Source: Paenibacillus sp. GM2 | GTDB taxonomy: Bacteria > Bacillota > Bacilli > Paenibacillales > Paenibacillaceae | NCBI RefSeq assembly: GCF_900069005.2 | Contig: NZ_LN831279.1 | Span: 2,159,918-2,223,917, forward strand | Direction: 5' to 3' | DNA: 64,000 nt | Shown: piece after piece, positions 32,678 through 45,672 of the stretch | Layout of the letters: every line of letters starts with the position of its first letter | Numbering within the stretch: the first letter of the stretch is position 1 | Notes under the pieces: model-generated | Seen by the model: the letters and a program-made list of their open reading frames with translations, nothing else | The model's database searches: none | What the model was told of the DNA's origin: nothing | Made by a program: the position numbers and the translations under genes

Positions 32678-33427
32678 ATGGATACTAAGAGAGTTGCAGT
32701 TATTACAGGTAGTGCAAGTGGAATCGGCAAATCAACCGCATTGAAGTTCGCCGCTGAAGGAGACCGCGTTGTCGTTGCTGACTTTAATGAACAAGCCGGA
32801 CAAGCAGTCGTCGATCAGATCAAGACAAATGGCGGAGAAGCTATTTTCGTAAAAACCGATGTATCGAAATATGAAGATGTCGAAGCTCTAGTTGACCAAG
32901 CCGTTAAAACCTATGGCCGGATTGACATAATGTTCAATAACGCCGGGATTGGCCGTCTGACCCCCGTTCTGGACCAGAAGCTGGAAGACTATCATGCTGT
33001 CATTAATGTAAACCAGCATGGGGTAGCCCATGGGATTATCGCCGCTGGCAAGAAAATGAGAGAAATGGGAATCCACGGTGTCATTATCAATACCGCCTCT
33101 GTATTTGGATTTCTGGCTTCTCCAGGTACCTTCGCCTATCATGCCAGCAAGGGCGCCGTCATTATGATGACGAAATCTGCAGCTCTTGAACTCGCTCCTC
33201 ATGGCATCCGCGTTGTTGCTGTAGCCCCAGGGGCCGTAGATACACCTATCATCCAAGGCTATAAGGATCAAGGCCTGGTTGATGCAATGAAGTCCAAAGT
33301 AATGGGCAATAAGCTGACTATGCCTGAACAAATCGCGGATACGGTATACCTCCTCTCCACACCAAACGCAAGCGCTATTAACGGCAGCGTCGTTATGGCC
33401 GATGAAGGATATGCTTCCTTTAAATAA
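32678..33427 (+). CDS. Short-chain dehydrogenase/reductase
   Basis: 249 residues, classical SDR. NAD(P) motif TGSASGIG, acidic residue in VVADFNE (favouring NAD), NNAG motif in MFNNAGIG, catalytic Ser in INTASVFGF, Tyr-x3-Lys in YHASKGA and the PGAVDTP motif after the active site. Substrate unknown. Probably controlled by the divergent LysR protein. It ends in a hairpin shared with the convergent Tad-like locus. Confidence 0.9.
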   Translation: MDTKRVAVITGSASGIGKSTALKFAAEGDRVVVADFNEQAGQAVVDQIKTNGGEAIFVKTDVSKYEDVEALVDQAVKTYGRIDIMFNNAGIGRLTPVLDQKLEDYHAVINVNQHGVAHGIIAAGKKMREMGIHGVIINTASVFGFLASPGTFAYHASKGAVIMMTKSAALELAPHGIRVVAVAPGAVDTPIIQGYKDQGLVDAMKSKVMGNKLTMPEQIADTVYLLSTPNASAINGSVVMADEGYASFK

Positions 33428-33443
33428 CATAGCATACTACGCA

Positions 33444-33478
33444 AACAGGCGCACACTCTTATCCGAGTGGCGCCTGTT
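33444..33478. terminator. Bidirectional hairpin between SDR and the Tad-like locus
   Basis: AACAGGCGC and CACTC (33444-33458) pair with GAGTG and GCGCCTGTT (33465-33478), loop TTATCC. Short T/A-rich flanks on both sides; it ends four bases before the stop of the minus-strand gene. Confidence 0.75.
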
Positions 33479-33481
33479 CTA

Positions 33482-34462
33482 TTATCGCCTGCAAATCGCT
33501 TCATAATAACCTCGTGCAGCCGCTTCCTGTTTGCGGGCAAACACCTCTTCAGTATTGTAGGGAAGCTCACACTTTGCGAAATAATAATATTTGATCCCCG
33601 TTGTTGGATCGACTCCGCCTTCAAGCCTTTCCGTTTTTCGCAGCCTGCCGCCGCCAAGGGCAAAGTTATTATAGTAATGATTCCCTATAGGAATCCCCTG
33701 CAGAAAAGCAATAACTCCGACATCGTCCAATGTATTATTCCATTCCTCCTTGGGGATTGTCGGCAGCGTAAAGGTGTAGGTAAAGCCTAATCTGGCGGTA
33801 AATTCATTATGCACAGCGATCACTTGCTGCAAATCCTCTTCGATCTGACGTACGATGGTGGAACGTCTTACTTGCTCGAATACTTCCGCATCCTGCAGCA
33901 GCGGAATCGCAGTTGCAGGAGCAAGATCTTCCAACCATCCCCGCATCTCCTCGCCAGTAGTGGAAGAAATAACCCGAATATAAGAATCCAAGCTAAACGC
34001 GGCGCTGTTCCCAGCGCTATCCGTGTATACATAGGGCCTCTTCGGGTGCCAGCGATGTTCCAGCCTGGGCTCTCCATTTGCACTGTTGAATTCATCCAGC
34101 GCATAAATCCAATAGCCATCATAATCGATGACTACGACCGCGGGAATATATTTCATTAATGCGGCCTGAACCAGCGAATCGTCTGCTATGCCAAAATTGA
34201 TTGCAAGCGACTGTAGAAGGATGGACAAGGCCAGTTCTTTATCCGTCCGCATATACTTATCCGAACTGTAGCCCACCTCGAATTGCTGCAGCTCATTACG
34301 GTTCAACACGCTTCCCGCATCCTGTACCGCCGTGCGAAGCGCAGTGGTATAGCGGAGCTGCAGGCGGTTGACCTCCTGCAAATCCATGGAATTTAGAGAT
34401 AAAGCCTCAAGAAATGGACCAACGATGAGCACGAAGATGATGGCCCAATCAGTAATCTTCAT
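33482..34462 (-). CDS. Membrane-anchored protein of unknown function, last gene of the Tad-like locus
   Basis: 326 residues. One N-terminal membrane segment (WAIIFVLIVGPFLEAL), then a long extracytoplasmic domain with a pattern suggestive of a minor pilin or tip protein: EVNRLQLRYTTALRTAVQDAGSVLN after the helix, and Trp/Tyr-rich strands (IDYDGYWIYALDEF). A single cysteine pair near the C-terminus (AKCELPYN and EAICRR) could form a disulfide. No recognised domain. It overlaps the preceding gene by 14 bases, so it is translated with it. Pilus-associated role is inferred from context only. Confidence 0.65.
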   Translation of the reverse strand: MKITDWAIIFVLIVGPFLEALSLNSMDLQEVNRLQLRYTTALRTAVQDAGSVLNRNELQQFEVGYSSDKYMRTDKELALSILLQSLAINFGIADDSLVQAALMKYIPAVVVIDYDGYWIYALDEFNSANGEPRLEHRWHPKRPYVYTDSAGNSAAFSLDSYIRVISSTTGEEMRGWLEDLAPATAIPLLQDAEVFEQVRRSTIVRQIEEDLQQVIAVHNEFTARLGFTYTFTLPTIPKEEWNNTLDDVGVIAFLQGIPIGNHYYNNFALGGGRLRKTERLEGGVDPTTGIKYYYFAKCELPYNTEEVFARKQEAAARGYYEAICRR

Positions 34463-35000
34463 TCAGAACCATCCCTCCATAATATAGCGTCTGCGCACCT
34501 TTGCCAGCTGCGGAAGAGGTCAGCAGGAATCCGACCAGCACCTGGTATGGGGATTTCGACCGCTTCGTCAGAGCAACCGAGAAGAAATCGCCTGTTTCCA
34601 GCTTGTACAGCCTGTCGGTCTCATCCATTGCCCCTGAGTCAGGAAATAACCGACCAAGCAGTTCTTCCGTATAGTATGAATCATAGATTACACTGAATTG
34701 TTCCTGGAACGTATCCCCATCCGCTGGGTCATCATATTCAGGATGATATTTCTTATGTTTGTGCTCCAGCTCCACCTCATAGACCTGACCGGAGACAGCC
34801 AACTCACGCACGAAGTCTTCGTACATGACGGCGGACAAGTAACCTTTATTTCGCACAGCATCTGTAAACTGAACCATCGCATTGTAAGCGGTCAGTACTG
34901 CCATATTTTCTGCACGCTCGGCAGCCTGAACGGCCGGGAAAAGTACAATAAGGGCAACTGCAAGCAACGCCGCGACTATTTTGGACAGTGGATTACTCAC
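34449..35000 (-). CDS. Membrane-anchored protein of unknown function in the Tad-like locus
   Basis: 183 residues. An N-terminal hydrophobic segment (IVAALLAVALIVLFPAVQA) is followed by AERAENMAVLTAYNAMVQFTD, a helix continuing from the membrane as in pilin-like proteins. The rest is an acidic external domain. GTG at 35000 is chosen because GGAGG lies nine bases before it; the frame extends to 35024 but without a site. It shares GTGA with the stop of the upstream gene, so translation is coupled. TadE/F-like minor pilin is possible but not shown by sequence. Confidence 0.65.
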   Translation of the reverse strand: MSNPLSKIVAALLAVALIVLFPAVQAAERAENMAVLTAYNAMVQFTDAVRNKGYLSAVMYEDFVRELAVSGQVYEVELEHKHKKYHPEYDDPADGDTFQEQFSVIYDSYYTEELLGRLFPDSGAMDETDRLYKLETGDFFSVALTKRSKSPYQVLVGFLLTSSAAGKGAQTLYYGGMVLNEDY

Positions 35001-35407
35001 GGAGCAACGCCTCCTGGAACACATTGAAAAGAAAGATTACGTAGTTGGCCCAGTTCATCATATTCGGCATCACAGTAATAACTGTGATCCTGCTTGATGA
35101 CAGTCAGCAGTAAAATATCATCCGTTCTTGATATGGAGGTTCCTTCGACCTGAAGACCTAGTCCATCATCCAGCCAATCTGCCAGACCATATAATATCTG
35201 TGCTCCAGTGTATATGTTTTGCTTTCGTTGCGTTTGATCCGTCCAGGTCTGTGTATTTACACTGACCTTCTGATTCTGTATAAAGGGAACCACCCCTTCC
35301 AATACCAGGGCTTGTTGCTCACTGTGATCCAAAGTATATATAAGCGCGGCCATGCAAATTACAGTGGAACAGAGCAGCCACATCATATCTTTGAGCGTAC
35401 GGAACAT
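34997..35407 (-). CDS. Small membrane-anchored protein of unknown function in the Tad-like locus
   Basis: 136 residues. N-terminal membrane segment (MMWLLCSTVICMAALIYTL), then an external domain with Thr/Gln-rich strands (KVSVNTQTWTDQTQRKQN) and two later cysteines (HSYYCDAEY and LSFQCVPGG). Start and upstream stop share one base (TAATG), so it is coupled to the pilin-like gene before it. No known family recognised. Confidence 0.65.
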   Translation of the reverse strand: MFRTLKDMMWLLCSTVICMAALIYTLDHSEQQALVLEGVVPFIQNQKVSVNTQTWTDQTQRKQNIYTGAQILYGLADWLDDGLGLQVEGTSISRTDDILLLTVIKQDHSYYCDAEYDELGQLRNLSFQCVPGGVAP

Positions 35408-35892
35408 TAAGGGGTTACTGTCGTCTGCGTAAAGATCAAGCCGCGCACAACATTGGATTGATCCTTGACAACCCGGGCCTTGAATTTACCGCTTGGGTTC
35501 ACATATTCATTTAATTTCTCATTCCACGAGTTGCTAATGTCTGCATTGCTCCTATTGATGACAGAACCATAATCATCTGCGTTGCCGATAATATTCAGAG
35601 TATGGCCGTACCATTCCCCTTGGTGGTTCTTGCCGGTAAGCACCTGAATTCCAAATTGGTCGCGTTCCTTAAATTTACGAAGCGCATTCGTAACCTGTGA
35701 ACCGCTAACCGTTGTATCATCGTACACTGTAAAAGAGGCCTGGGACAGCTCAGTCTGAATGTCGGAGAAATTGTTCTGCGCCGTCTTTGTCGCCTCTTGC
35801 GCCGAGACGAACAAGACAACAACTATTGTAATTAATGCAATCGTCAGGAAGATTCCTGCCGCTACCTTTAATGCGGATGAAGCGTTATTCAT
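35407..35892 (-). CDS. Pilin-like small protein with N-terminal hydrophobic helix
   Basis: 161 residues. The sequence opens MNNASSALKVAAGIFLTIAL with a long hydrophobic helix up to residue 31. An amphipathic extension (EATKTAQNNFSDIQTELSQA) and a globular region follow. Such a layout, a short polar leader then a continuous helix, is that of pilin-like subunits, although no clear prepilin peptidase site (Gly or Glu/Phe-Glu) is present. The segment FTVYDDTTVSGSQVTNALRKF recalls small proteins of clostridial Tad-like loci. GGAGG before the ATG is strong. It is separated from the upstream TadBC gene by a repeat element. Candidate major subunit of the machine. Confidence 0.65.
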   Translation of the reverse strand: MNNASSALKVAAGIFLTIALITIVVVLFVSAQEATKTAQNNFSDIQTELSQASFTVYDDTTVSGSQVTNALRKFKERDQFGIQVLTGKNHQGEWYGHTLNIIGNADDYGSVINRSNADISNSWNEKLNEYVNPSGKFKARVVKDQSNVVRGLIFTQTTVTP

Positions 35893-35922
35893 ACTTTTAT
35901 TCCTCCTAATAAGTTATAGATA

Positions 35923-36120
35923 TCGTTACAAAAGTGCGATTTTCAGCACCGGGAAGGTTGGGTGACGCCAGAGTCTGAGAAGCAGAGCTGCACGTTTTCG
36001 CAGAACCCGTCTTCGGAAGCAAAGGCTTGTAGTTGGTTCGGTAAGCACTTGAGATGTTTCCAGTGGAAGAACGACTTCGGAAACATTTGCTTAGGACCAA
36101 ATGAATTCAAGATCCGATGC
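35923..36120 (-). repeat. Copy A of the CTTGAATTC dispersed repeat, inside the Tad-like locus
   Basis: Read on the minus strand: CTTGAATTC (36103-36111), CCTAAGCAAATG, TTGCTTCCGAAG, CTTCTCAGACTCTGGCG, ACCCAACCTTCCCGGTGCTG and AAAATCGCACTTTTGTAAC in order. The same blocks appear at 44434-44580 and 63907-64000. It fills most of the 379-base gap (35893-36271) between the TadBC gene and the pilin-like gene. An apparent ORF in it is not a gene. Confidence 0.75.
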
Positions 36121-36271
36121 CGAATTACTTCTTGATTTGCTTCATGTTAGATATAGAATTTATACGTTATCAGCCAATTCCCATATCGATAGGAAACCTG
36201 CCTTAGAATCGCGGCCGGCGGTCGGCGGTCGCCCATCTATGAATAGAGCAGGCGGACTTTTCGAACTAGCT

Positions 36272-38362
36272 TCATAAATTTTGAATTTGTTGAAAGTAGA
36301 CATCCATCTGCTTGAAGCTCATCCAAATGAGTGGAACGACCAAATAAGCAAAAATCAGTGAGTACATCGGTGCAAAACCGATCATCCGGCCCATTTCGGC
36401 CTTCCTATCCAAATCCTTTTCATATTCCAGCCGTCTTCGCTCAAACTGAAAGCCCATCTCGCTCTGTAGATCATCAAACGCTTTTCGAACCGGTATTTTC
36501 TCCTCCGCCTGAATCAAGTGCTCGATTAAACGCTGGAACTCTTCCAAGGCGGTCTCATCCTTTAATCCCAGAAGAGCCTCCTGAGCTCCTGCACTGTAAT
36601 GAGCCAGGCATTTCTCGATCGGAGCTCTAAAAATAAGGGCATAGCTGTATAGCCATTCCAATATTGCTTCCACCGAGATCCGTTCGAACTGTCTTAAGAT
36701 CATAATCATCGTCTGGAACTGATACACCTCATGTCTCATATCTGTCAGCCTTAATCTGCGCTGGAATCGAAGCGTCCAGATCGGACTGTAATATCCGAGC
36801 AAAGGTAATATGAAGGTAAGCATGACCTCCCACCACTTCCAATATTCAGCCTGATAGCGAGCCAGCTTGTCCATAATGCGCTGCGCAATCGCAGTCGTCT
36901 TGCCTTCATCCAGCTTCAAACCGAGCTCCTTTGCTGCCGAAGTCACGATTTGAGCGATTGCTTCATCATTCGCTGCCACAGACATTCCTGGACTCCGCAG
37001 CACCTGCCGATCCAACTCGGCCATCTCTCTGGCATCCTTCGCTTCTTCTTTCGAGAGGGAGCCGAGAAATACGTAGCTTGTCGGCGGCTCAGCGATAATC
37101 CATTCCCGGCTCTTCCAATGCGTCCAGCTAATCGAACAGCCTATAACGAGCAGACATCCAACAAAAATAGCAGTTCGCCTAACCTGCAGCAATTCAACGC
37201 GCAGAGTCTGATTCGTATCCTTAAGCAAATCGGCGATGCGGTCATAACGCACTGAGCCAGGTAGCGGACAGAACCAGCTTACGATCATTCTTGCTATCTT
37301 CCAGCGATAAGCCTTCGCCTCCCAGGAGGAAACATCCGAGCCGGCGCGATAGGCTGTAGCTTCCTCGCTTTTTAATTTCTGCAGAAGGATATAGCTCAGC
37401 AGTATAATAATGAATAGACCGATATGAATAGAGATGCCGAGCTTGCTCAAATAAAACTGGTCCATCAGGGGAAAGTTCCGCCGTGCCCAAAGCTCAATGG
37501 GCTTCGTGAAGAATATAGGAGCTAATGCAATCAGGCTGAGCCCCTTTAGTAAATAATCAAGCTTGCTCCGACGCATCAGCTCTAGTTGAATCTCCCCGGT
37601 CAGGCTGGAAATCCCGCGCAAATAAAGCGATCCCTGCTGTGCATCCTTGCGGTCTCCATATTCCATGATCAGCCGGGAGATCGAAGCAAATCCTTTCAGG
37701 AAGCGAGTCGGCGCCGTCTCATAATAACGGTCAAGCTCTTTATCCGGTTCAGCCGAAGTCAGAGCTTCATAAATCCGTTCCCCATGTCTGACGATTTCCT
37801 CACTCAAGCTATCATTCGCTTCATCGATCGCATCCGCTACCATTTCATGAGCATGGTAGGCATGTCTAACCGCAGTGAACCACCGCAGCATTTGCAGCAG
37901 CAGCTTCTTTTCCAGCCTTGCTACATAAGCTTCAAGCATCAGCCCATGAATAACGGCAACGGTAATGATGACAGTGAGGAAGAACAACATGTTCGGATGC
38001 ATCAGAGTCAAAGCGATAATTCCCGTCCCGGATATACCCAGCAGCAAATATACGAGCTTCATCACCTGCCGCCTTAATTCAAATTCATCCGACGTCTGCA
38101 GCAATGAAATACGGCCGCGAACCTTAAGCACATATAACCGCAAAGGCGGTATTTTCATCGATATGGCATAGGATCGCAACAGCAAAGTCGCCACAACTGT
38201 CTTCAATCCGCTTAAGAACCCTGACGGCGCAGCCGCTTTCACTCCGAGCTCTCCTGCCTTCTTCTCCTCACGCCTGCGAATCTCAAAAGCGATCAAATAG
38301 ATGCCGCCAAATAATAGAAATGATATAAACGCGACCCACAACAAGACCGATTTAAGCTCCAA
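36272..38362 (-). CDS. Fused TadB-TadC type II secretion F-like membrane protein
   Basis: 696 residues, about twice the length of a TadB or TadC protein. The N-terminal half has a helix at 7-27, paired helices near 100-145 and a cytoplasmic helical block (LLLQMLRWFTAVRHAYHAHEMVADAIDEA). The second half repeats the plan, with helices near 285-305, 320-345 and 400-420, a T2SSF-like segment (FQTMIMILRQFERISVEAILEWL) and a final helix near 665-685. It should be the inner-membrane platform driven by the CpaF-like ATPase. TTG start at 38362, inside the ATPase gene (11-base overlap), with GGGGGAG four bases away; a TTG seven codons later is possible. Confidence 0.8.
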   Translation of the reverse strand: MELKSVLLWVAFISFLLFGGIYLIAFEIRRREEKKAGELGVKAAAPSGFLSGLKTVVATLLLRSYAISMKIPPLRLYVLKVRGRISLLQTSDEFELRRQVMKLVYLLLGISGTGIIALTLMHPNMLFFLTVIITVAVIHGLMLEAYVARLEKKLLLQMLRWFTAVRHAYHAHEMVADAIDEANDSLSEEIVRHGERIYEALTSAEPDKELDRYYETAPTRFLKGFASISRLIMEYGDRKDAQQGSLYLRGISSLTGEIQLELMRRSKLDYLLKGLSLIALAPIFFTKPIELWARRNFPLMDQFYLSKLGISIHIGLFIIILLSYILLQKLKSEEATAYRAGSDVSSWEAKAYRWKIARMIVSWFCPLPGSVRYDRIADLLKDTNQTLRVELLQVRRTAIFVGCLLVIGCSISWTHWKSREWIIAEPPTSYVFLGSLSKEEAKDAREMAELDRQVLRSPGMSVAANDEAIAQIVTSAAKELGLKLDEGKTTAIAQRIMDKLARYQAEYWKWWEVMLTFILPLLGYYSPIWTLRFQRRLRLTDMRHEVYQFQTMIMILRQFERISVEAILEWLYSYALIFRAPIEKCLAHYSAGAQEALLGLKDETALEEFQRLIEHLIQAEEKIPVRKAFDDLQSEMGFQFERRRLEYEKDLDRKAEMGRMIGFAPMYSLIFAYLVVPLIWMSFKQMDVYFQQIQNL

Positions 38363-40193
38363 TCTGCTCCCCCCAATACTGAGACAGAAATTGCTCGAAG
38401 CGGCGGGCGTCTTCCGGCATCATTTCACGCTGCATTTCATTACGGCAACGATCTGTAATCGGTTGAACAGCGCGGTATCCGCCATCGATATATTCAACTA
38501 TCGTCCTCGCCTGATAGGTTCGCTCCCCGGTATCTATATCAGCCCCACCGTCACTCCGGCGGCTGCACTCAGTAATTCTTTCAATATAGCGATGGCCATG
38601 AATATCTCTGCGCAAATGGATGTCAAAGTCGATAACCCCGGCGACCTGTAGTTCGGCAACCCGTTCATCCCGAAAGACTCCTGTCTTCAACAATGAGTTC
38701 CTTAATGAATCGATCAGGTCAGCGAAGGTCTTGGCATGATGCGTGAACACGGTAAAAAGACTGGCTACCTGTGCCATTTGAATCATCCAGGATGCAACCT
38801 CATCCGATGCGACTTCGCCAAGAATATGCACCGTCCCGTCCGTCTTCTTCTGCAAGTCGAGGCCAGCCTGTCCGCTTACATATTCGGTCTCCCGGAAGCT
38901 GAGTATATTTCGGGCGCTATACAGCTTTCGCAGATTCAACTCGAAGGACATTTCCTGGACCCGCAGTGTGTAAGACGCATAAATGTGTTTAACCAGCGCC
39001 ATTAACAGCGTCGTTTTGCCTGAGCCCTGTGATCCCGTAATTGAAGTAATTCGACTCCCCTTCATTAAATATTTCAGAAGCTGAATAGGTATATCTGCAC
39101 CATAGCCCTGTATTAATTGCTCAAGCGCCGCTCCTTGGGTATCGAATTTACGGACGAAGAAAGCCCATGTCTCTGCAAACGGAGGCCGGACCACGACAAC
39201 CCGGGAACCATCCTTCATATCATTCACTTTAAATCCGCTGGCCTCCGACAATTGACCCGGCAAATTGTATTTATATATATTTTGGCAGATCCTCCTGAGC
39301 TCAAACTCGCTGCCGAAGGATAAGAAAGGAAGCCTGATGCTCTTGCCTTTATAAAAGATCCACACGCTCTCCCATACCCGGGAGACTTCCCGCCCATCTT
39401 CGTCCAATGGAACACCGGGAACCGTCCCAATTCCGGCTCCGTTTACTTCATCCTGTTCACAACCCCACTGAACCGATTCGGATATTCCACTTACTCCGCC
39501 GCTTACTCCATCAATTCGCTGCTCTAGTATACTGTCGATAACAGAAAAACCTTTATACGACTGATAGACCCGCTGAACAACGAGATCCAGCTTCTCTTCA
39601 AAGCTAAGCTGTCGGTATTCCCTGCCGAAGCAGTAATCCATTTCCTCGACGCTGATTTCGTACATATATCCCTTCTCTTCTTCATTCATCCGCTTCGGTT
39701 CGTCGAGTTCATATTGCTCAATCAGCACCGACAGCGCATCGTCACCGTATCTTTGGCGATAAAGATAGAAAATGATCTCGAACCGATCCTGATGAGTCAG
39801 CCTGACGGGCTGTTGAAAAGGAATAATTTGCTCAATGCTCTCCTCCGTAACCCCGTATCCTTCAAGCAGCAAATCGCGGATATAGGTTTGAACGAATCGC
39901 TTGTCGCTACGGTCCCCATAAGTACACCCCCGCAACGCTTGGCGCAACTCTGTTCTCGCTTTTACTTTACGGAGCCAAGCCTCCTCACCCATCCCCCACT
40001 GATTAATCTTGTTGCGGCTTAATTCATGCAGTTGAAACTTCACATAAGCAATAAGATCGGGAATGCTATAGCGTTCATGGGTTACCCGGCTCGCAAAGGT
40101 TTGTTCAGACACCGCCCTGGCCTTAAGCCAGACAAGCAGGAGCGCAAGCAGCATGATCAAGCCTATTCCAATTCCGTTCGCAAGTCGATCCAT
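38352..40193 (-). CDS. CpaF/TadA-type secretion ATPase with N-terminal membrane segment
   Basis: 613 residues. The C-terminal half is a hexameric secretion ATPase: Walker A GSQGSGKTT (387-395), Walker B HILGEVAS near 457-462 and a His-box-like FTVFTHHAKT in place of the usual TTVHANS. Unusual parts are an N-terminal hydrophobic helix (residues 5-23), rare for soluble CpaF proteins, and a glycine/serine-rich insertion near 228-262. GGGGG precedes the ATG. Located between a MinD-like gene and the TadBC gene, the normal place for the motor of a Tad-like pilus or secretion system. Confidence 0.88.
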   Translation of the reverse strand: MDRLANGIGIGLIMLLALLLVWLKARAVSEQTFASRVTHERYSIPDLIAYVKFQLHELSRNKINQWGMGEEAWLRKVKARTELRQALRGCTYGDRSDKRFVQTYIRDLLLEGYGVTEESIEQIIPFQQPVRLTHQDRFEIIFYLYRQRYGDDALSVLIEQYELDEPKRMNEEEKGYMYEISVEEMDYCFGREYRQLSFEEKLDLVVQRVYQSYKGFSVIDSILEQRIDGVSGGVSGISESVQWGCEQDEVNGAGIGTVPGVPLDEDGREVSRVWESVWIFYKGKSIRLPFLSFGSEFELRRICQNIYKYNLPGQLSEASGFKVNDMKDGSRVVVVRPPFAETWAFFVRKFDTQGAALEQLIQGYGADIPIQLLKYLMKGSRITSITGSQGSGKTTLLMALVKHIYASYTLRVQEMSFELNLRKLYSARNILSFRETEYVSGQAGLDLQKKTDGTVHILGEVASDEVASWMIQMAQVASLFTVFTHHAKTFADLIDSLRNSLLKTGVFRDERVAELQVAGVIDFDIHLRRDIHGHRYIERITECSRRSDGGADIDTGERTYQARTIVEYIDGGYRAVQPITDRCRNEMQREMMPEDARRFEQFLSQYWGEQIGA

Positions 40194-40195
40194 GG

Positions 40196-41020
40196 CTAGG
40201 CCCCCTTGTCGTCAGATAAGGATATCAGGGGCATATATGTGTCTGACGCAGCGGCCATTGCGCCACCAATCTGCTGAAAAGCTTCCAGCAGGGTCCCGCG
40301 CCTTGCCCTCATTCGGCCAAGCAGCTGTATCCGGCGGAAATACCGGAGCAGGTCATGCTCATTCCAAGCATCTGCGAACCCGGTATCATAAGCGATGCCG
40401 TACAGCGGAATTTCACAGCCGTAATACCGTTTGATATTTGCAATATTCCATTTGGCCTGACGATCGTAATGGCGGAGAATGATACCTTTTACCTTGTTCT
40501 TCGCTGCCTCAGAGCAAGAACGGTAATATGCAAAAAACGGATCCAGTTCGGTTCGATTCTGCTGCAGCACAGGCAACAGCAGCGCCGCCTCCGTTTCGGC
40601 AACAGGCAGTGTTATGCTGCTGCGATGCAGGAACACAAGTTCATACACCTCCTCTGCAGCCCCATATAACTGCTGCAGCACAGCGGCTGTCTGCTTGCCC
40701 AGCCCTCCCCTTGTACCGGGAATGAGGTCAAGACGGCTGTTAATCAGCGGTCTAGTATAATCCGCTAAGTTATATCGCGATAGGCGCCGATTCATAAGCA
40801 GCCGCAGCAGGGCTTCCGTCCCGGTCTCTGTAATCTCTGAGCCATCTCTAACGGCTGTTTCGTCATAGACCGGAAAGCCACGCTCTATTCCCTGACCTGG
40901 CTCATCTTCATTAATGATCAGTATGCGACGTCTCTGGTAGAGCGAAGCAGCAATGGCGATGGCAGCGGCAATATCCGCAGCACCGTTATAACTGTAATCC
41001 CAAACAACAATTCGGCTCAT
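40196..41020 (-). CDS. ParA/MinD-fold protein without a Walker A lysine (second)
   Basis: 274 residues. It starts MSRIVVWDYSYNGAADIAAA. Position and following helix match the deviant Walker A of CpaE/MinD proteins, but the GKT triplet is replaced by GAA. Later RRRILIINEDEPGQG matches the second strand and switch region, and VKGIILRHYDRQAKWNIANIKRYYG the distal nucleotide fold. The ATG at 41020 has GGAGG inside the preceding gene and forms ATGA with its stop. Probably a non-catalytic localisation or scaffold subunit of the Tad-like machine. Confidence 0.7.
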   Translation of the reverse strand: MSRIVVWDYSYNGAADIAAAIAIAASLYQRRRILIINEDEPGQGIERGFPVYDETAVRDGSEITETGTEALLRLLMNRRLSRYNLADYTRPLINSRLDLIPGTRGGLGKQTAAVLQQLYGAAEEVYELVFLHRSSITLPVAETEAALLLPVLQQNRTELDPFFAYYRSCSEAAKNKVKGIILRHYDRQAKWNIANIKRYYGCEIPLYGIAYDTGFADAWNEHDLLRYFRRIQLLGRMRARRGTLLEAFQQIGGAMAAASDTYMPLISLSDDKGA

Positions 41021-41730
41021 ATGGCCCTCCTTCTTGCACTGCGCATAGCCCTGTTTGCCTCGCTTCTGGTCCATCCGGTCAGCTGTAAGATTAGAGAGAT
41101 CAGGGCTCTTCTATAAGAGCGGGTGATTTTGTCGATATGAAGCTTATGCTCATGCCCGTTCTCATAATGGATGGCCGTATTAAACTCACTCCAGGCAATG
41201 CACGCAACGTCTGTATTCCACTCTATCGGCAAATCCTCGGCCAGACCCATCATGTAATTTGCGGTTAAGTAACTCTCCACCGTTCTTATCAGAACAGGAT
41301 GAACAAAAACCCCCGCAAGTTCAGGGTCCGAGCTAAGCCACTGTCTGAACCAGTCCGCACTTCGTTCCACCTCATAGTAATCAAAGGTGGTCACCCATAG
41401 GATCTGATCCACTTGTGAGCGGAGTCCTGCCTGTGGCTGATCCAGCTCAAAATCATACAGTACAAAGTCGTAGCTCTCGTCCCCAGTATAGATGGCTTCC
41501 GGTAATTCCGCTCCCGCTTCCGAAGCTTGCATCTCTCGATTTGTGATATCAAAGCCGCAGAACTCGATTCGTGGTAAAGTGCCCTCTCTATTACGGGCAA
41601 GATATTGATATTTGCTCCCGGCCGTTCGATCTACAAGCAACACACGCTGTCCGGCCGCAGTGAGCAGCTTGCAAATGTAGAGAATAAGCTCCCGCTTATC
41701 ACTCACACCGGCAAATAACCAACGTTTCAT
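41017..41730 (-). CDS. ParA/MinD-fold protein without a P-loop (first)
   Basis: 237 residues. MKRWLFAGVSDKRELILYIC aligns in form with the start of MinD/CpaE (strand, loop, helix) but has no Gly-Lys-Thr. RVLLVDRTAGSKYQYL, FVLYDFELDQPQAG and VDQILWVTTFDYYEVERSADWF correspond to the later strands of the ParA fold. GGGAGGG precedes the ATG at 41730; the frame continues to 41766 without a site. Coupled to the next gene by ATGA. No enzymatic activity is expected; the fold assignment is by pattern, not by search. Confidence 0.65.
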   Translation of the reverse strand: MKRWLFAGVSDKRELILYICKLLTAAGQRVLLVDRTAGSKYQYLARNREGTLPRIEFCGFDITNREMQASEAGAELPEAIYTGDESYDFVLYDFELDQPQAGLRSQVDQILWVTTFDYYEVERSADWFRQWLSSDPELAGVFVHPVLIRTVESYLTANYMMGLAEDLPIEWNTDVACIAWSEFNTAIHYENGHEHKLHIDKITRSYRRALISLILQLTGWTRSEANRAMRSARRRAI

Positions 41731-41782
41731 CCGATTCCCTCCCAATAAACCTGGACATCTCATCAACTCACCCGATTACCGG

Positions 41783-42679
41783 CTATTCCTTCCCAGCATC
41801 AAGCGCAAATGAATCGCTTCCCTCTCGTGAGCTACGAACAGATGCTGCTGAAGATTTCTGATTGATAAATTCAGCCGCATGCTGCGACGTCACCGAAGCC
41901 AAGTCTCCTTCCAACCCTGCTCTTATCGAAGCTGTTAGCGCATGTTCCGCCAAATCTATGATGTTCGGATCCTTGCGGATCACCTGAAGCACGGCGTCGC
42001 TCGGCGGATAGGTCGGTATGGCTTCCCGCTGCAAATATGGCTCCACATACTTAAGCGCATAAATGGAGGCCTTATGCAAATAAGCATCTACGATCCCGCT
42101 GGACAACAGCAGAATCTCCTCCTCATTGAGGATCGAGTTCACTACGCCTGGAGCGAGCGATTCAACCCGTTTCTTGGACAGCAGGATGTAATCCTGTCCG
42201 GTCGGGAACTGAATCCGAATATCGACGACATCCTTCTGCTTCAGTTCACCCGGCAGCTGAATAAAACCCATCTCACGATAACGAAGATCGTCAGCAACGG
42301 CCCCTTCCTCAAACAACAAAGAGCCGGTAAGCAGCGTATTGGGGGCGACCGTAATTTTGGGGCTCTTGCCGACGATATCTTCGGAGGCATGTAACCAATC
42401 GCCCGGAACGCTGTTCACGGGTAGAACAATCGACGCCAGATCCTGCCTTGCAATGCGTTCGCCAGCCGGGATTTCCCGCAATAAAGTCCAGCCGGCGACA
42501 ACGTCACCGGAAGCCTGCTTTAAGGCAGATATCTCACCCTCATACTGCTTCATGAGAGATGTCCGCATTTGCTCCAATCGGCTGGAAGCATGGACAGCAT
42601 ACCCTGTGAAGGCAACCCCGACGATGCCTGCACCAACCAAGCCCGCATAAATCAATTGCCTTGTTCGTTTCCTAATCAC
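41783..42679 (-). CDS. CpaB/RcpC-like SAF-domain membrane protein
   Basis: 298 residues. Short cytoplasmic tail, one membrane helix (LIYAGLVGAGIVGVAFTGYAV), then a coiled segment and a SAF domain (about 58-125: VVAGWTLLREIPAGERIARQDLASIVLP, then APNTLLTGSLLF). The rest follows RcpC/CpaB proteins (ELKQKDVVDIRIQFPTG). CpaB proteins are periplasmic or wall-side assembly factors in Tad systems. GTG start at 42679 with GGAGG ten bases upstream; 21 bases after the kinase gene. The Gram-positive context implies an external role between membrane and wall. Confidence 0.82.
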   Translation of the reverse strand: MIRKRTRQLIYAGLVGAGIVGVAFTGYAVHASSRLEQMRTSLMKQYEGEISALKQASGDVVAGWTLLREIPAGERIARQDLASIVLPVNSVPGDWLHASEDIVGKSPKITVAPNTLLTGSLLFEEGAVADDLRYREMGFIQLPGELKQKDVVDIRIQFPTGQDYILLSKKRVESLAPGVVNSILNEEEILLLSSGIVDAYLHKASIYALKYVEPYLQREAIPTYPPSDAVLQVIRKDPNIIDLAEHALTASIRAGLEGDLASVTSQHAAEFINQKSSAASVRSSREGSDSFALDAGKE

Positions 42680-42700
42680 TAGATTCTCACCTCCTCTTGA

Positions 42701-44218
42701 TTACTTCTTGCCCGACAACCAGAATCCGCGTTTGACTGGGCGGATGCCTTGAGGCAACACTTCACTGCATGCCTGCAGCAATGCCATCTCCATCGCCTGT
42801 CCAGGAACAAATGGATTACTTACGGCTGGCAGTGCAAAGACGAGCTTCGTATTCAATAATTTCTGCAGCCTGTTAACGTCTGGTCCCCCCGCAAACGGAA
42901 GGCAGTATACCGGGGATCGTTTGATCTGACCAGAAGCATCGGCGGAGAACAGTTCCATTTCATCTATCCTCCAAGCAACTGCTGAACCTACCAAAATCGC
43001 CAAATCCGCCCTGATAAATTCCTCAAGCAGATCCTTGCGCCTGCTGGAACCCAGATCACAAATAATATAGGTATAGTCCTCCGCAAACAGATCAAGCATC
43101 TCAACCCGCGAGCTGGCCCTTAGATAATCAACGCCTTCAATCCGAGAGCGTCGATGGGGAAGCTGTCTGGAATGTCCCCCCTCCACCCCCAGCCTGTGAA
43201 AAATCCGTTCGAACGCCGTTGCCCGGGAGTCCAGCTCAAGTACAGCGACCCTTCTCGAATATCTGGCCAACGAATGAGCAAGTGAAACCGCTGTATGCGT
43301 CGTTCCGACCCCCGGACCCGCTCCCATCACCGCTATTACAATTGAACGGCCAGAAGCAGCCGCCCCAGCTCCCCCCACCCGCACTCCTCCCCTGACTCCA
43401 GCACTTCCAGCTTGCGAACGTTCGAGCAGCTTGCTTAACGCAGCGCCCGCTTCCTGCGCTGTCTGGAAACGCTCTTCCGGGAGGCTGTGCAGCAATTTCT
43501 CAATCGCAGGAGCAAGCTGAGAAAATCCACGCTTGGCAAGCAGGGTCATGGCCTCTGACGTGCATTCCGTATATTTGCAATGAGTGCCCAAATATAGCAG
43601 TATCGCACCTAAAGAATACAAGTCCGCCCTTCCATCACTCTGCCGGCCCCCGTATTGCTCCGGAGCTGCGAATCCAATCGTCCCCAGCTTGATCGTATCC
43701 TCAAGTCCATCGGGCTTAAATTTGCGGGCGATGCCGAAATCTACAAAGCGGATCTCCCCCTTCCCATCGATCAACAAATTTGAAGGCTTCAGATCGCGAT
43801 GAATAATCGGCGGCTTGCGACTGTGCAAATAATGCAAGCCTTCGCAAATCTGCACTCCAATCCCGATCAGCATTTCCGGCTTGAAGCCTCGGCCCAGCCT
43901 CTGCACATGCTGGTCCAGATGAACCCCAGCGATGTAGTCCATGACAAGATAAGAACGGCCTTCCGAATCACTGGACCAGAAGTCAACGATCCGCGGCAGG
44001 CGATGGTGATTCATCGCGATCAGAAGGGCTGCTTCTTCCTCCAATTGCAGCTCTCTTGGCATATGGGCCGCCATCTCCTTGATTGCCCAAAGCTTCCCTG
44101 AAAGCTTCAAATCCGCAGCCAGATAAACGTGGCTCATGCCGCCCTGTCCGATCAAACGCTCGATCCGGTATCGTCCCGCTATTACATCTCCTTCAGCAAG
44201 CAACGCCATATGCGGCAA
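42701..44218 (-). CDS. Ser/Thr protein kinase fused to a MinD/CpaE-like domain
   Basis: 505 residues, first gene of the Tad-like locus. Residues 1-265 form a Hanks-type kinase: Gly-loop LIGQGGMSHVY, Lys47 in WAIKEM, HRDLKPSN at 140-147, DFG at 160-162 and APEQYGG. A Gly/Ala/Val linker leads to a ParA/MinD/CpaE-like domain (from about 292: IVIAVMGAGPGVGTTHTAV), in which the Walker A lysine is Thr, followed by VAVLELDSRATAFERIFHRLG and YIICDLGSSRRKDLLEEFI. No membrane segment or PASTA domain. TTG at 44218 is chosen because GGAGG is seven bases before it; the ATG at 44209 is 16 bases away. Kinase-CpaE fusion suggests phospho-control of pilus assembly or localisation. Confidence 0.82.
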   Translation of the reverse strand: MPHMALLAEGDVIAGRYRIERLIGQGGMSHVYLAADLKLSGKLWAIKEMAAHMPRELQLEEEAALLIAMNHHRLPRIVDFWSSDSEGRSYLVMDYIAGVHLDQHVQRLGRGFKPEMLIGIGVQICEGLHYLHSRKPPIIHRDLKPSNLLIDGKGEIRFVDFGIARKFKPDGLEDTIKLGTIGFAAPEQYGGRQSDGRADLYSLGAILLYLGTHCKYTECTSEAMTLLAKRGFSQLAPAIEKLLHSLPEERFQTAQEAGAALSKLLERSQAGSAGVRGGVRVGGAGAAASGRSIVIAVMGAGPGVGTTHTAVSLAHSLARYSRRVAVLELDSRATAFERIFHRLGVEGGHSRQLPHRRSRIEGVDYLRASSRVEMLDLFAEDYTYIICDLGSSRRKDLLEEFIRADLAILVGSAVAWRIDEMELFSADASGQIKRSPVYCLPFAGGPDVNRLQKLLNTKLVFALPAVSNPFVPGQAMEMALLQACSEVLPQGIRPVKRGFWLSGKK

Positions 44219-44244
44219 GCAATAACCTCCTTTGCAACACAAAA

Positions 44245-44357
44245 AGGGAAAGCAATCACGTTCAGCTCAGATTAACCGAGACTAAACGGGATGCTTTCCC
44301 TATTGTTATTAATGTATAATTTTGGAATCAGTATAGCACATACTTGCGAGAAATCAA
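44245..44357 (-). promoter_or_regulatory. Tad-like locus promoter and long leader hairpin
   Basis: Minus strand: -35 TTGATT (44352-44357), 16-base spacer, -10 TATACT (44330-44335). About 30 bases into the predicted transcript a long stem forms: AGGGAAAGCA (44292-44301 side) with TGCTTTCCCT (44245-44254), plus inner CGTTTAG/CTGAACG and CTCGG/CTGAG helices. TTTTTGTG follows, then the GGAGG of the kinase gene. This is a terminator-like structure inside a 5' leader, hence a candidate attenuator. No c-di-GMP riboswitch core is seen. Confidence 0.6.
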
Positions 44358-44381
44358 ACTCTTTTTTTGCAGAAAGTCCAA

Positions 44382-44580
44382 AAAGTCCGAAATTGATCCC
44401 AAAGTAATACTGAGAGCTTATTCGAAATCAAATCTTGAATTCAGCCTGACCTAAGCAGATGCTTGCAATGTCATCCTTTGGAAATACCTCAGGTGTTCAC
44501 GAACCCAAACGAACGCTCCGCTCCTCATGCGCTAGCTTCATTCAACCTTGTCGGTGCTAAAAACCGGTCTTGTAAACTCG
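44382..44580 (+). repeat. Copy B of the CTTGAATTC dispersed repeat
   Basis: Begins near AAAAAGTCCG, then TTGATC, CTTGAATTC (44434-44442), CCTAAGCAGATGCTTGC, GGTGTTCACGAACCC, CTCCGCTCCTCA, GCGCTAGCTTCATTCAACC and TCGGTGCTAAAAACCG, ending near TTGTAAACTCG. Together with the leader above it accounts for the 44219-44601 gap. Confidence 0.78.
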
Positions 44581-44601
44581 TACACCAAAAAATTCACGGC
44601 A

Positions 44602-45672
44602 TTAATATTTAATCATATACAGAGTGATTTCATCACGATTATGGAACAGCTGTTTAGCACGCTGGACTTGCATTTGCGCCGCCTCAAACAGGGATATCAC
44701 TTCCTGAATAAGCGCCATGGGCTTCTTGCTCATCAGCTTGACAGTAACCACTGCCGTTCCGCCCGGAACAAGCGCATACAGCAGATCAATGACCATTTTG
44801 GCGGTCTGCTTCGGATTCCAGCTCATGTCGCATACGAGCAAATCGAACTCTCCATCGCGAAATTTAACGCTGTCTGCATTTTTACGGATATGAGTCAGCT
44901 GCGGTGAAGCCAATATCGATGGATGCATTTTTGCCGGATCAACCGCCGTTACCTTGAGACCTCGCTCCAACAGGAACGAAGACCAGCCCCCTGGAGCTGC
45001 CCCGATATCAAGCGCTTCATGAAAAGCTGAAAAGTTAATATCGAAAACCGCTTCTGCTTCCAGCAGCTTGAACTTCGCCCGTGAAATCTGCCCTTCCTCG
45101 CGCTGGAAGCGAATCGCTCCGCCATTCCAGTCCGATAAATTCTGCTGCGGCGTTGAGATTCCCGCCAGGACCTGATCCTTGCTGATGAATACAGATATGA
45201 TCCAATCCGCATCCCTCACCACAAACTCAGCTCCAAGTTCATCCAATCGCGTCTGAAGCATGTCTTTGAGCGACACCGCACTCCCCTGCCATAATGCACT
45301 CTCGGCTTTCCGGGGCTGAATAGCGACCTTTGCTCCTGTTAACCGCTCATCCTCTAAAAGGTATTGAACAAGATCATTTTCCCAGGCTTGGTCTGAATTC
45401 TCTTCGTTCATCATCCATTGCCAGCCTACCGGAAACATATGACGCAAAAATAACGGCTGCACGGCTGCAAACTGGCGCTCAATTTGTTGTGGCTCTTGGG
45501 GCAGAGTGACCAGCAGAACTTCTCCTGGGACAAGTACAGCACTCTTAACCGAACCAAATAATCTGCGCAGCTCCTCTTGTGCATACGGAGCGAATCCATG
45601 ATTCGCTGTACACACATATCGCGCCGATGTGATGGTCTGCGCCTCATCTGTATTATCTATATGAATATTCAA
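44602..45672 (-). CDS. RlmM/FtsJ-like SAM-dependent rRNA methyltransferase
   Basis: 356 residues. The SAM-binding DIGAAPGGWSSFLLERG, acidic VTAVDPAKM and catalytic-type LLVCDMSWNPKQTAKMV and VTVKLMSKK fit the FtsJ/RlmM group, which 2'-O-methylates 23S rRNA. The N-terminal half (YVCTANHGFAPYAQEELRRLFG) resembles a THUMP-like RNA-binding domain. Of two in-frame TTG codons, 45672 is preferred because GAGAGG abuts the first one at 45681. Lies just after a cPP-receiver gene on the same strand. The exact target nucleotide is not shown by the sequence. Confidence 0.82.
   Translation of the reverse strand: MNIHIDNTDEAQTITSARYVCTANHGFAPYAQEELRRLFGSVKSAVLVPGEVLLVTLPQEPQQIERQFAAVQPLFLRHMFPVGWQWMMNEENSDQAWENDLVQYLLEDERLTGAKVAIQPRKAESALWQGSAVSLKDMLQTRLDELGAEFVVRDADWIISVFISKDQVLAGISTPQQNLSDWNGGAIRFQREEGQISRAKFKLLEAEAVFDINFSAFHEALDIGAAPGGWSSFLLERGLKVTAVDPAKMHPSILASPQLTHIRKNADSVKFRDGEFDLLVCDMSWNPKQTAKMVIDLLYALVPGGTAVVTVKLMSKKPMALIQEVISLFEAAQMQVQRAKQLFHNRDEITLYMIKY

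Follow-up and report, generated by a model that had tools for sequence, protein, structure and literature searches.

What does a bacterium make with a Tad-type motor, a Ser/Thr kinase and four tail proteins that no curated family recognises? The question is raised by a block of ten genes in Paenibacillus sp. GM2, which lies within a stretch of 64,000 nucleotides (hereafter the window; contig NZ_LN831279.1, here C10, positions 2159918-2223917) of a 5.85-Mb genome. An initial annotation, made from the letters alone, described a Tad-like pilus or secretion locus. The follow-up analysis suggests that these genes specify an envelope machine, a sister system to Tad, whose most likely product is a type IV-like filament, a reading favoured here with some confidence and well short of certainty. 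It draws on the conservation of the block, on the kinship of its motor, its CpaE-like proteins and half of its platform with Tad, and on the tail protein T1, whose predicted shape and conserved N-terminus are pilin-like. The features are as follows:

42701..44242, minus strand: KinCpaE, fusion of a Ser/Thr kinase with a CpaE/MinD-like domain; likely start an ATG near 44209
41783..42679, minus strand: SAF-domain membrane protein, CpaB-like by weak TIGR03177 and PF08666 scores and a conserved position
41017..41766, minus strand: ParA1, CpaE/MinD-like without recognisable P-loop (family profile against canonical CpaE)
40196..41074, minus strand: ParA2, CpaE/MinD-like with a degenerate P-loop (family profile against canonical CpaE and KinCpaE)
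38352..40193, minus strand: CpaF-like motor ATPase with an N-terminal hydrophobic segment (family profile against solved and canonical CpaF)
36272..38362, minus strand: TadBC, single-chain platform protein of 696 aa, N half TadB-like
35895..36271, no strand: interspersed repeat between TadBC and T1, outside the machine (genome matches, gap lengths)
35407..35892, minus strand: T1, pilin-like protein of a putative new family, likely main subunit (AlphaFold2 model, motif counts)
34997..35407, minus strand: T2, T1 homologue, perhaps a minor subunit (hhalign of families)
34449..35024, minus strand: T3, conserved membrane-anchored protein (alignment, one N-terminal hydrophobic segment)
33482..34462, minus strand: T4, membrane-anchored, with a predicted long N-terminal helix and an alpha/beta region (AlphaFold2 model, alignments)

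A conserved gene block

The genes run from KinCpaE through SAF, ParA1, ParA2, CpaF, TadBC, T1, T2 and T3 to T4, all on the minus strand between 33482 and 44242, and their open reading frames overlap at ParA1/ParA2, CpaF/TadBC, T1/T2, T2/T3 and T3/T4. The description of ten co-oriented, mostly overlapping genes is therefore real, with a correction at one end: the boundary first given, 44357, falls outside the kinase frame, whose first start codon is at 44242, and the ATG near 44209 agrees better with the orthologues. The sole break in the block, 379 bp long, separates TadBC from T1 and is filled by an interspersed repeat with modular blocks, for which a 377-bp query found 54 matches in the same genome, itself included; in 13 relatives fetched from its genus the gap measures only 16-25 bp, so the repeat is absent there by gap length. 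A scan of 33000-44800 against Rfam gave two sub-threshold matches and nothing above threshold.

How widely is this arrangement kept? A clear block-type CpaF was defined by an E value of 1e-70 or better (the next matches lie near 1e-15). Of 148 genomes from the window's family, 79 have it, among them the 15 of its genus (counted by hand), and the other 69 do not. Stretches of 20 kb were fetched around 38 family loci and eight class-level loci, seven of the latter from three other families. A scan of contigs matched at least 580 stretches, at least 554 of them relatives, and the best 80 were used, 21 of them Clostridia. Together with five plasmid loci, the set came to 131 (38 family, 8 class-level, 5 plasmid, 59 other and 21 Clostridia loci); it includes duplicates, since some genomes have unnamed and named copies, and 123 loci are distinct by CpaF. 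The detected genes keep one order and strand in all 131 loci. The initial annotation had named lack of joint conservation as the result that would sink its idea, and the opposite was found. SAF, CpaF, TadBC, T1, T3 and T4 were all detected in 38/38 family, 8/8 class-level, 5/5 plasmid, 55/59 other and 12/21 Clostridia loci, and missing genes are mostly on short contigs. No T4 match was found in three Clostridia loci of 19-21 kb (L167, L168, L182), and among the 46 loci of 20 kb ParA1 was undetected in five and ParA2 in one. Identity to the window's proteins across the ten nearest loci (L040-L049) is 76-83% for T1 and 61-67% for CpaF. A T3 profile built without Clostridia rows found only four of 348 genomes in a phylum sample, all from the window's family, and among phage records just three matched, at 27-29% to the motor region.

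The ten genes are thus one conserved unit. That they form one machine, first proposed from gene order and coupling, is now backed by conserved synteny and by the Tad kinship of CpaF, of CpaE and of one half of the platform. With at least 554 reference-genome stretches matching, this would be a conserved and little-noticed filament-type machine, and no description of it was found in the open-licence literature.

Motor, platform and CpaE-like proteins

The motor is the clearest link to Tad. CpaF scored just below the Pfam cut-off; its family profile matches solved CpaF structures (8rkd, 9e24; E 2e-11 to 3e-11, positions 266-532) and, by hhalign, canonical CpaF of the window's bacterial family (99.1%, E 6.2e-19). 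An N-terminal hydrophobic segment was present in 46/47 and 79/80 cases (121/123 distinct sequences) and in 0/20 canonical CpaF. The canonical set used for these comparisons was changed once: the first, from the window's own genome, found little but CpaF elsewhere and was replaced by L184. The initial call of a fused TadB-TadC holds for one half only. The N half of TadBC matches TadB (85%, E 5.9e-6), and the C half is a match to neither TadB (24%) nor TadC (0.6%); for comparison, canonical TadB and canonical TadC match each other at 96.5%. The SAF protein scored 25.9 bits with TIGR03177 (cut-off 71) and 17.1 bits with PF08666 (cut-off 21). Of the first domain calls, the kinase was strong and CpaF was borne out by its family profile, with SAF/CpaB staying weak and below curated cut-offs. 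The position of the SAF gene is conserved across loci.

Three proteins of the block are related to canonical CpaE by profile comparison. KinCpaE matched it at 96.3% by hhalign, and the ParA1 family, which has no Pfam match, at 93.7% (E 1.9e-7). The ParA2 family matched canonical CpaE at 82.6% (E 9.6e-6) and KinCpaE at 93.1%. In the examples read, ParA1 is without a P-loop and that of ParA2 is degenerate. KinCpaE also lacks the GKT lysine of the P-loop, and in the kinase-bearing branch as a whole this lysine is replaced wherever the motif can be read. The kinase part (PF00069, E 1.5e-37; CbiA for the other part, E 1.5e-4) has its motifs intact: AIK at 53, HRD at 148, DFG at 168 and APE at 193. 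Among 22 relatives, HRD or YRD with Lys and Asn was found in 20 and DFG-x-AR in 21; the pattern searches were simple and could have overlooked the motifs in the others. The kinase looks active.

The kinase fusion had been singled out as unusual. It is distinctive, and it is no oddity of the window's genome: in a 48-row CpaF tree a single branch separates the 23 kinase-bearing loci from the rest (support 88/96; 87% of bootstrap trees), and a shuffled control for the trait gave a mean of 16.3 changes. An RlmM-like methyltransferase gene lies upstream of the kinase gene in the window and in 22/22 fetched relatives, so the fusion marks one branch adjoining this gene. The same neighbour and the 3.59-Mb contig rule out the window's copy as a mobile element. 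The window's own genome holds a second copy at C10:3268415, kinase-free and with a plain CpaE. An SLH-domain gene lies downstream of it and a GGDEF-like gene, below its GGDEF cut-off, upstream. A receiver-like N-terminus on the CpaE of kinase-free copies was an impression by eye only, to which Pfam gives no support.

Tail proteins

No Pfam or NCBIfam model scored above its cut-off with TadBC or with any of T1-T4. A profile search found 176 T1-like frames in 128 of the 131 loci, the three others being short contigs; 96 loci have one copy, 19 have two, ten have three and three have four, and in Clostridia several T1-like genes stand in tandem. The most conserved part of T1 across Bacilli and Clostridia is its N-terminus, with the motif MxNAxxAL. 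Among 174 aligned sequences Asn3 was found in 169, Ala4 in 152, Ala7 in 156 and Leu8 in 160. Position 7 is occupied by a small residue in 170 (151 of 155 distinct sequences), which fits the -1 position of a putative cleavage site. AlphaFold2 predicted a single helix at residues 2-55 (54 residues) followed by an alpha/beta domain (predicted local distance difference test, pLDDT, 82; predicted template modelling score, pTM, 0.61).

A lone T2 sequence gave 0.1% against T1, a result superseded by the comparison of families: with T2 assigned by position in 118 loci, hhalign gave 97.9% (E 5.5e-13 over 128 columns), and five column-shuffled controls gave at most 0.1%. T2 is thus a homologue of T1, and T1, judged by these profiles and its model, founds a putative pilin-like family unknown to Pfam. 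Of the four tail proteins first listed as unrecognised, T1 and T2 can now be placed in one family, and T3 and T4 match nothing. Neither showed a relation to T1 or T2 (at most 11% by hhalign). T3 has one N-terminal hydrophobic segment and no Pfam or NCBIfam match above cut-off, and comparison with one DUF4320 protein gave nothing. T4 was modelled as a helix at 3-51, of pilin length, with an alpha/beta region (pLDDT 82.6, pTM 0.70). In a VIA structure search with T4, chemoreceptor sensor domains, from TlpA and TlpC, took ranks 2, 5, 6 and 8 (Z 3.7-4.3, 133-138 residues, root-mean-square deviation 3.5-3.8, which is below the tool's trustworthy level), and one of these entries bears the title double CACHE; ranks 4 and 7 were a lactate biosensor and rank 1 a short Polo-box match. 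Foldseek found nothing better than E 0.16 for T4 or E 1 for T1, PDB sequence searches gave one chance match for T1 and none for T4, and Pfam Cache models matched none of 38 T4 members. The structural ranks are a weak hint that T4 perhaps has a Cache-like domain.

Evidence against a filament, and the source of a peptidase

The long T1 helix, its conserved N-terminus, its tandem copies in some loci, the paralogue T2 and the long helix of T4 support a filament. Several observations weigh against one. No filament has been seen. T1-T4 gave at best 5.9% by hhalign against canonical Flp, TadE, TadG and TadV; this best value, from TadE, TadE2 or TadG, is compatible with distant kinship, and T1 against Flp gave 1.8%. 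Glutamate at position 12, which would be +5 after cleavage behind residue 7, was found in 0/174 T1 sequences (0/155 distinct). No pilin stood among the listed PDB matches of the T1 and T4 models, which excludes nothing. According to an excerpt of PMC5072692, a Paenibacillus with two putative pili gene sets deleted, which may or may not include this block, was unchanged in motility. Only two of 131 loci (L086, L063) have a prepilin peptidase gene next to the block by tblastn with four queries, which is less sensitive than a family model, and the family model found none on five whole plasmids. Three genomes that bear on the source of a peptidase (G801, G802 and G818, below) are drafts and may be incomplete.

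Where, then, would a peptidase come from? The initial statement that prepilin peptidase and Flp pilin were missing held for the block, in which neither a prepilin peptidase nor a canonical Flp was found; secretins, also listed as missing, were not searched for separately. The family model recovered the peptidases of L086 and L063 as well: in a first set of genomes it placed one beside the block in 1/23 block-bearing genomes, and in a second set it found one on G824:C15, which is the contig of L063. In both loci (L086 15965-16399; L063 16846-17271, minus strand) the gene lies upstream of a kinase-free copy. Somewhere in the genome a peptidase match was present in 25/25 genomes searched, 23 of them block-bearing, and in 25/26 of a second set. 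A lineage free of peptidase is ruled out by the block-bearing Clostridia drafts (1.0-1.9 Mb), of which 20/21 gave a match, in G804 one split over frames. G801, G802 and G818 have no clear ATPase of this class other than the block's CpaF, and one peptidase is still present in each. Since nearly all host genomes searched have one, these three included, a shared host peptidase is likelier than none. Sharing of peptidases between systems has been reported for other systems in an excerpt of PMC6668835. By these searches, the missing peptidase would be characteristic of the system rather than of the window, with a candidate available in the host genomes.

Plasmids, spread and neighbouring genes

Some copies of the block sit on large plasmids. 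Searches of plasmid records gave 24 with block-type CpaF and 22 with T1, every one of them typed as non-mobilizable. The hosts are Paenibacillus, Lysinibacillus, Cohnella, Thermobacillus, Alkalihalophilus, Sporosarcina, Cytobacillus and, for CpaF alone, Butyrivibrio. In five plasmid regions viewed, the order from SAF to T4 is kept in each and the gene at the CpaE position varies. Two plasmids were read further, and their annotated transfer genes lie elsewhere than the block: pTHECO01 carries VirD4-like, TcpE and 'conjugal transfer protein' genes and pG5.M11b_1 VirD4-like, TrbC/VirB2, PrgI and DUF87 genes. Ten records have a VirD4 that shares 50% identity or more with the one on pTHECO01; six of these carry the block, three being P. 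urinalis plasmids that resemble one another, and the block is accessory in this plasmid group. The idea that the block is the plasmids' own mating channel was rejected on these separate transfer genes and on its presence in only six of the ten. Pfam and NCBIfam models for VirB4, VirD4 and relaxase families matched none of the ten block proteins. The record pHD03 (NZ_CP013206.1) was dropped as plasmid evidence, as its gene content resembles a piece of chromosome; NZ_CP013205.1 is another record of the same strain, whose gene content was not read.

Positions 4508-25352 of a Cohnella herbarum plasmid (L095) are 100% identical over 20,845 bp, block included, to positions 1-20845 of a contig named Paenibacillus mellifer (L150), and this plasmid stretch also aligns over 16.8 kb, at 94-97% identity, with contigs of Cohnella sp. 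REN36, P. alginolyticus and P. athensensis. The pattern suggests a recent move between genera, although the 100% case could also be contamination. In public plasmid records the block CpaF is already called 'TadA' in places, with other parts given as hypothetical proteins, and T1 is named 'ABC transporter permease' in several (H2, H3, H10-H14, H18), which looks like a misnomer.

Near the plasmid copies L094, L095, L096, L098 and L103 lie genes for DUF5704 proteins (about 1000-1280 aa) and SLH/stalk-domain proteins, which are candidate surface partners; no mention of DUF5704 was found in the open-licence literature. In Clostridia, a spoIVB-like gene was found in 12/20 loci and was the first gene past the last T3 or T4 match in 11 (L175, L164 and others), the SpoIVB of L175 being confirmed by Pfam. 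By eye, several Clostridia loci also have small spore-protein-like genes upstream. In the window, the gene beyond T4 encodes a short-chain dehydrogenase on the opposite strand.

How the machine may work

In the mechanism proposed here, the N-terminal segment of CpaF would keep this motor at the membrane. CpaF would drive the single-chain platform, which would move T1 subunits out of the membrane into a thin filament. T1 would be processed by the host's prepilin peptidase. T2, and perhaps T3 and T4, may start or cap the filament; the SAF protein may support its passage outside the membrane, and the three CpaE/MinD-like proteins may position or tether the motor. In the kinase branch, the fused kinase would switch assembly by phosphorylating a part of the machine. 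The likely job would be adhesion or cell contact, and on plasmids the filament may aid mating in the way of the R64 thin pilus; by analogy, a contact pilus is the natural guess for the plasmid copies.

Could the filament be built from uncleaved T1, with the MxNAxxAL head kept and read by the platform and no peptidase needed? This variant, itself compatible with a filament, gains from the rarity of peptidase genes near the block and their absence from the whole plasmids, from the lack of Glu5 in T1 and from T2-T4, which by eye have no clear cleavage site. The peptidase matches in all 23 block-bearing genomes searched and in nearly all of the second set speak against it, as do the small residue at position 7 and the reported sharing of peptidases (excerpt of PMC6668835), and we regard it as unlikely, if the most credible of the departures from the proposed mechanism. 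A pseudopilus-like machine for secretion or the envelope, in which T1 and T2 form a short piston moving surface proteins such as SLH, stalk-domain or DUF5704 proteins, is somewhat less probable still. Its appeal comes from the neighbours: in 4/5 plasmid loci SLH/stalk-domain genes and then DUF5704 follow T4, directly or one gene on; the fifth has SLH/stalk and DUF5704 about 9 kb on, across the start of the record; and the kinase-free copy of the window's own genome has its SLH gene downstream. Such partners are not a fixed part of the block, however, because the window has the short-chain dehydrogenase past T4, and tandem T1 copies in some loci suit a filament better than a piston.

A link to sporulation is the reading to which we give least credence. 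The spoIVB-like and small spore-protein-like neighbours in Clostridia favour a sporulation-linked envelope machine, and the named hosts belong to groups that are mostly spore-forming. The Bacilli copies, however, showed no sporulation gene in their neighbourhood, where no search aimed at such genes was made, and 69 of the 148 family genomes do without the block-type CpaF while other copies ride on plasmids. A bolder proposal is a separate class of type IV filament, with uncleaved pilins, an anchored motor and a Cache-like sensor in T4 that signals to the CpaE-fused kinase and so gates growth. We rate it as improbable, above the sporulation link and below the piston. If it were true, contact or a ligand would directly gate filament growth, across a range that takes in Paenibacillus, gut Clostridia and large plasmids.

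The preferred reading, a filament-building sister of Tad, raises questions of its own. Can a type IV filament be made from pilins that lack Glu5, by a system without its own peptidase? How did a Hanks-type kinase come to control a Tad-like machine? Do conjugative plasmids of Gram-positive bacteria have contact pili like those of IncI plasmids?

Comparison with known systems

The closest known system is the Tad or type IVc pilus. It shares with the block the CpaF motor, CpaE-like proteins, a TadB-like N half of the platform and, weakly, SAF/CpaB. The block differs in its membrane-anchored CpaF, its one-chain platform, its three CpaE-like proteins and a pilin set that has no detectable relation to that of Tad and lacks Glu5; TadV is absent beside 129/131 loci. 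Of the features that define a Tad locus, a CpaF/TadA-type motor and CpaE/TadZ are found, and separate TadB and TadC, an Flp with Glu at +5 and a TadV in the locus are not. Since the split platform, the Glu5 pilin and the in-locus peptidase are wanting, we file the block, on its homologies, as a probable sister of Tad within type IV filaments and not as a Tad locus.

Of the 20 genomes behind the canonical Tad loci of the window's family (L184-L203), 15 also have block-type CpaF. These loci, and the DUF4320-type locus L077, share CpaF and CpaE ancestry with the block and, unlike it, have separate TadB and TadC and, by eye in L184 and L077, an Flp with Glu5; a TadV-like gene is present in 20/20 of L184-L203. 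L077 lies in the window's own genome (G000:C10:285000-304999) and encodes a DUF4320 protein (E 1.5e-15), split TadB/TadC, an 82-aa Flp-like protein and a 1657-aa protein. In another Tad-type locus of this genome, L006 (G000:C10:356626-359790), CpaF looks truncated: what stands ahead of the TadB-like gene is just a frame of 156-176 aa that carries the C-terminal part of CpaF.

A single long platform chain is also found in the archaeal-type platforms with two T2SSF domains, from which, according to an excerpt of PMC6668835, TadB and TadC were derived by fission. In that scheme TadC corresponds to the N-terminal half and TadB to the C-terminal half, whereas in the block it is the N half that resembles TadB; no archaeal platform was included in the comparison. 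The R64 thin pilus of IncI plasmids is described in an excerpt of PMC10286972 as a type IV pilus beside a conjugative type IV secretion system, serving cell contact in liquid mating. Two copies of the block likewise lie on plasmids with annotated transfer genes; R64 belongs to another pilus class and other hosts, and the block is accessory in one plasmid group (6/10 records).

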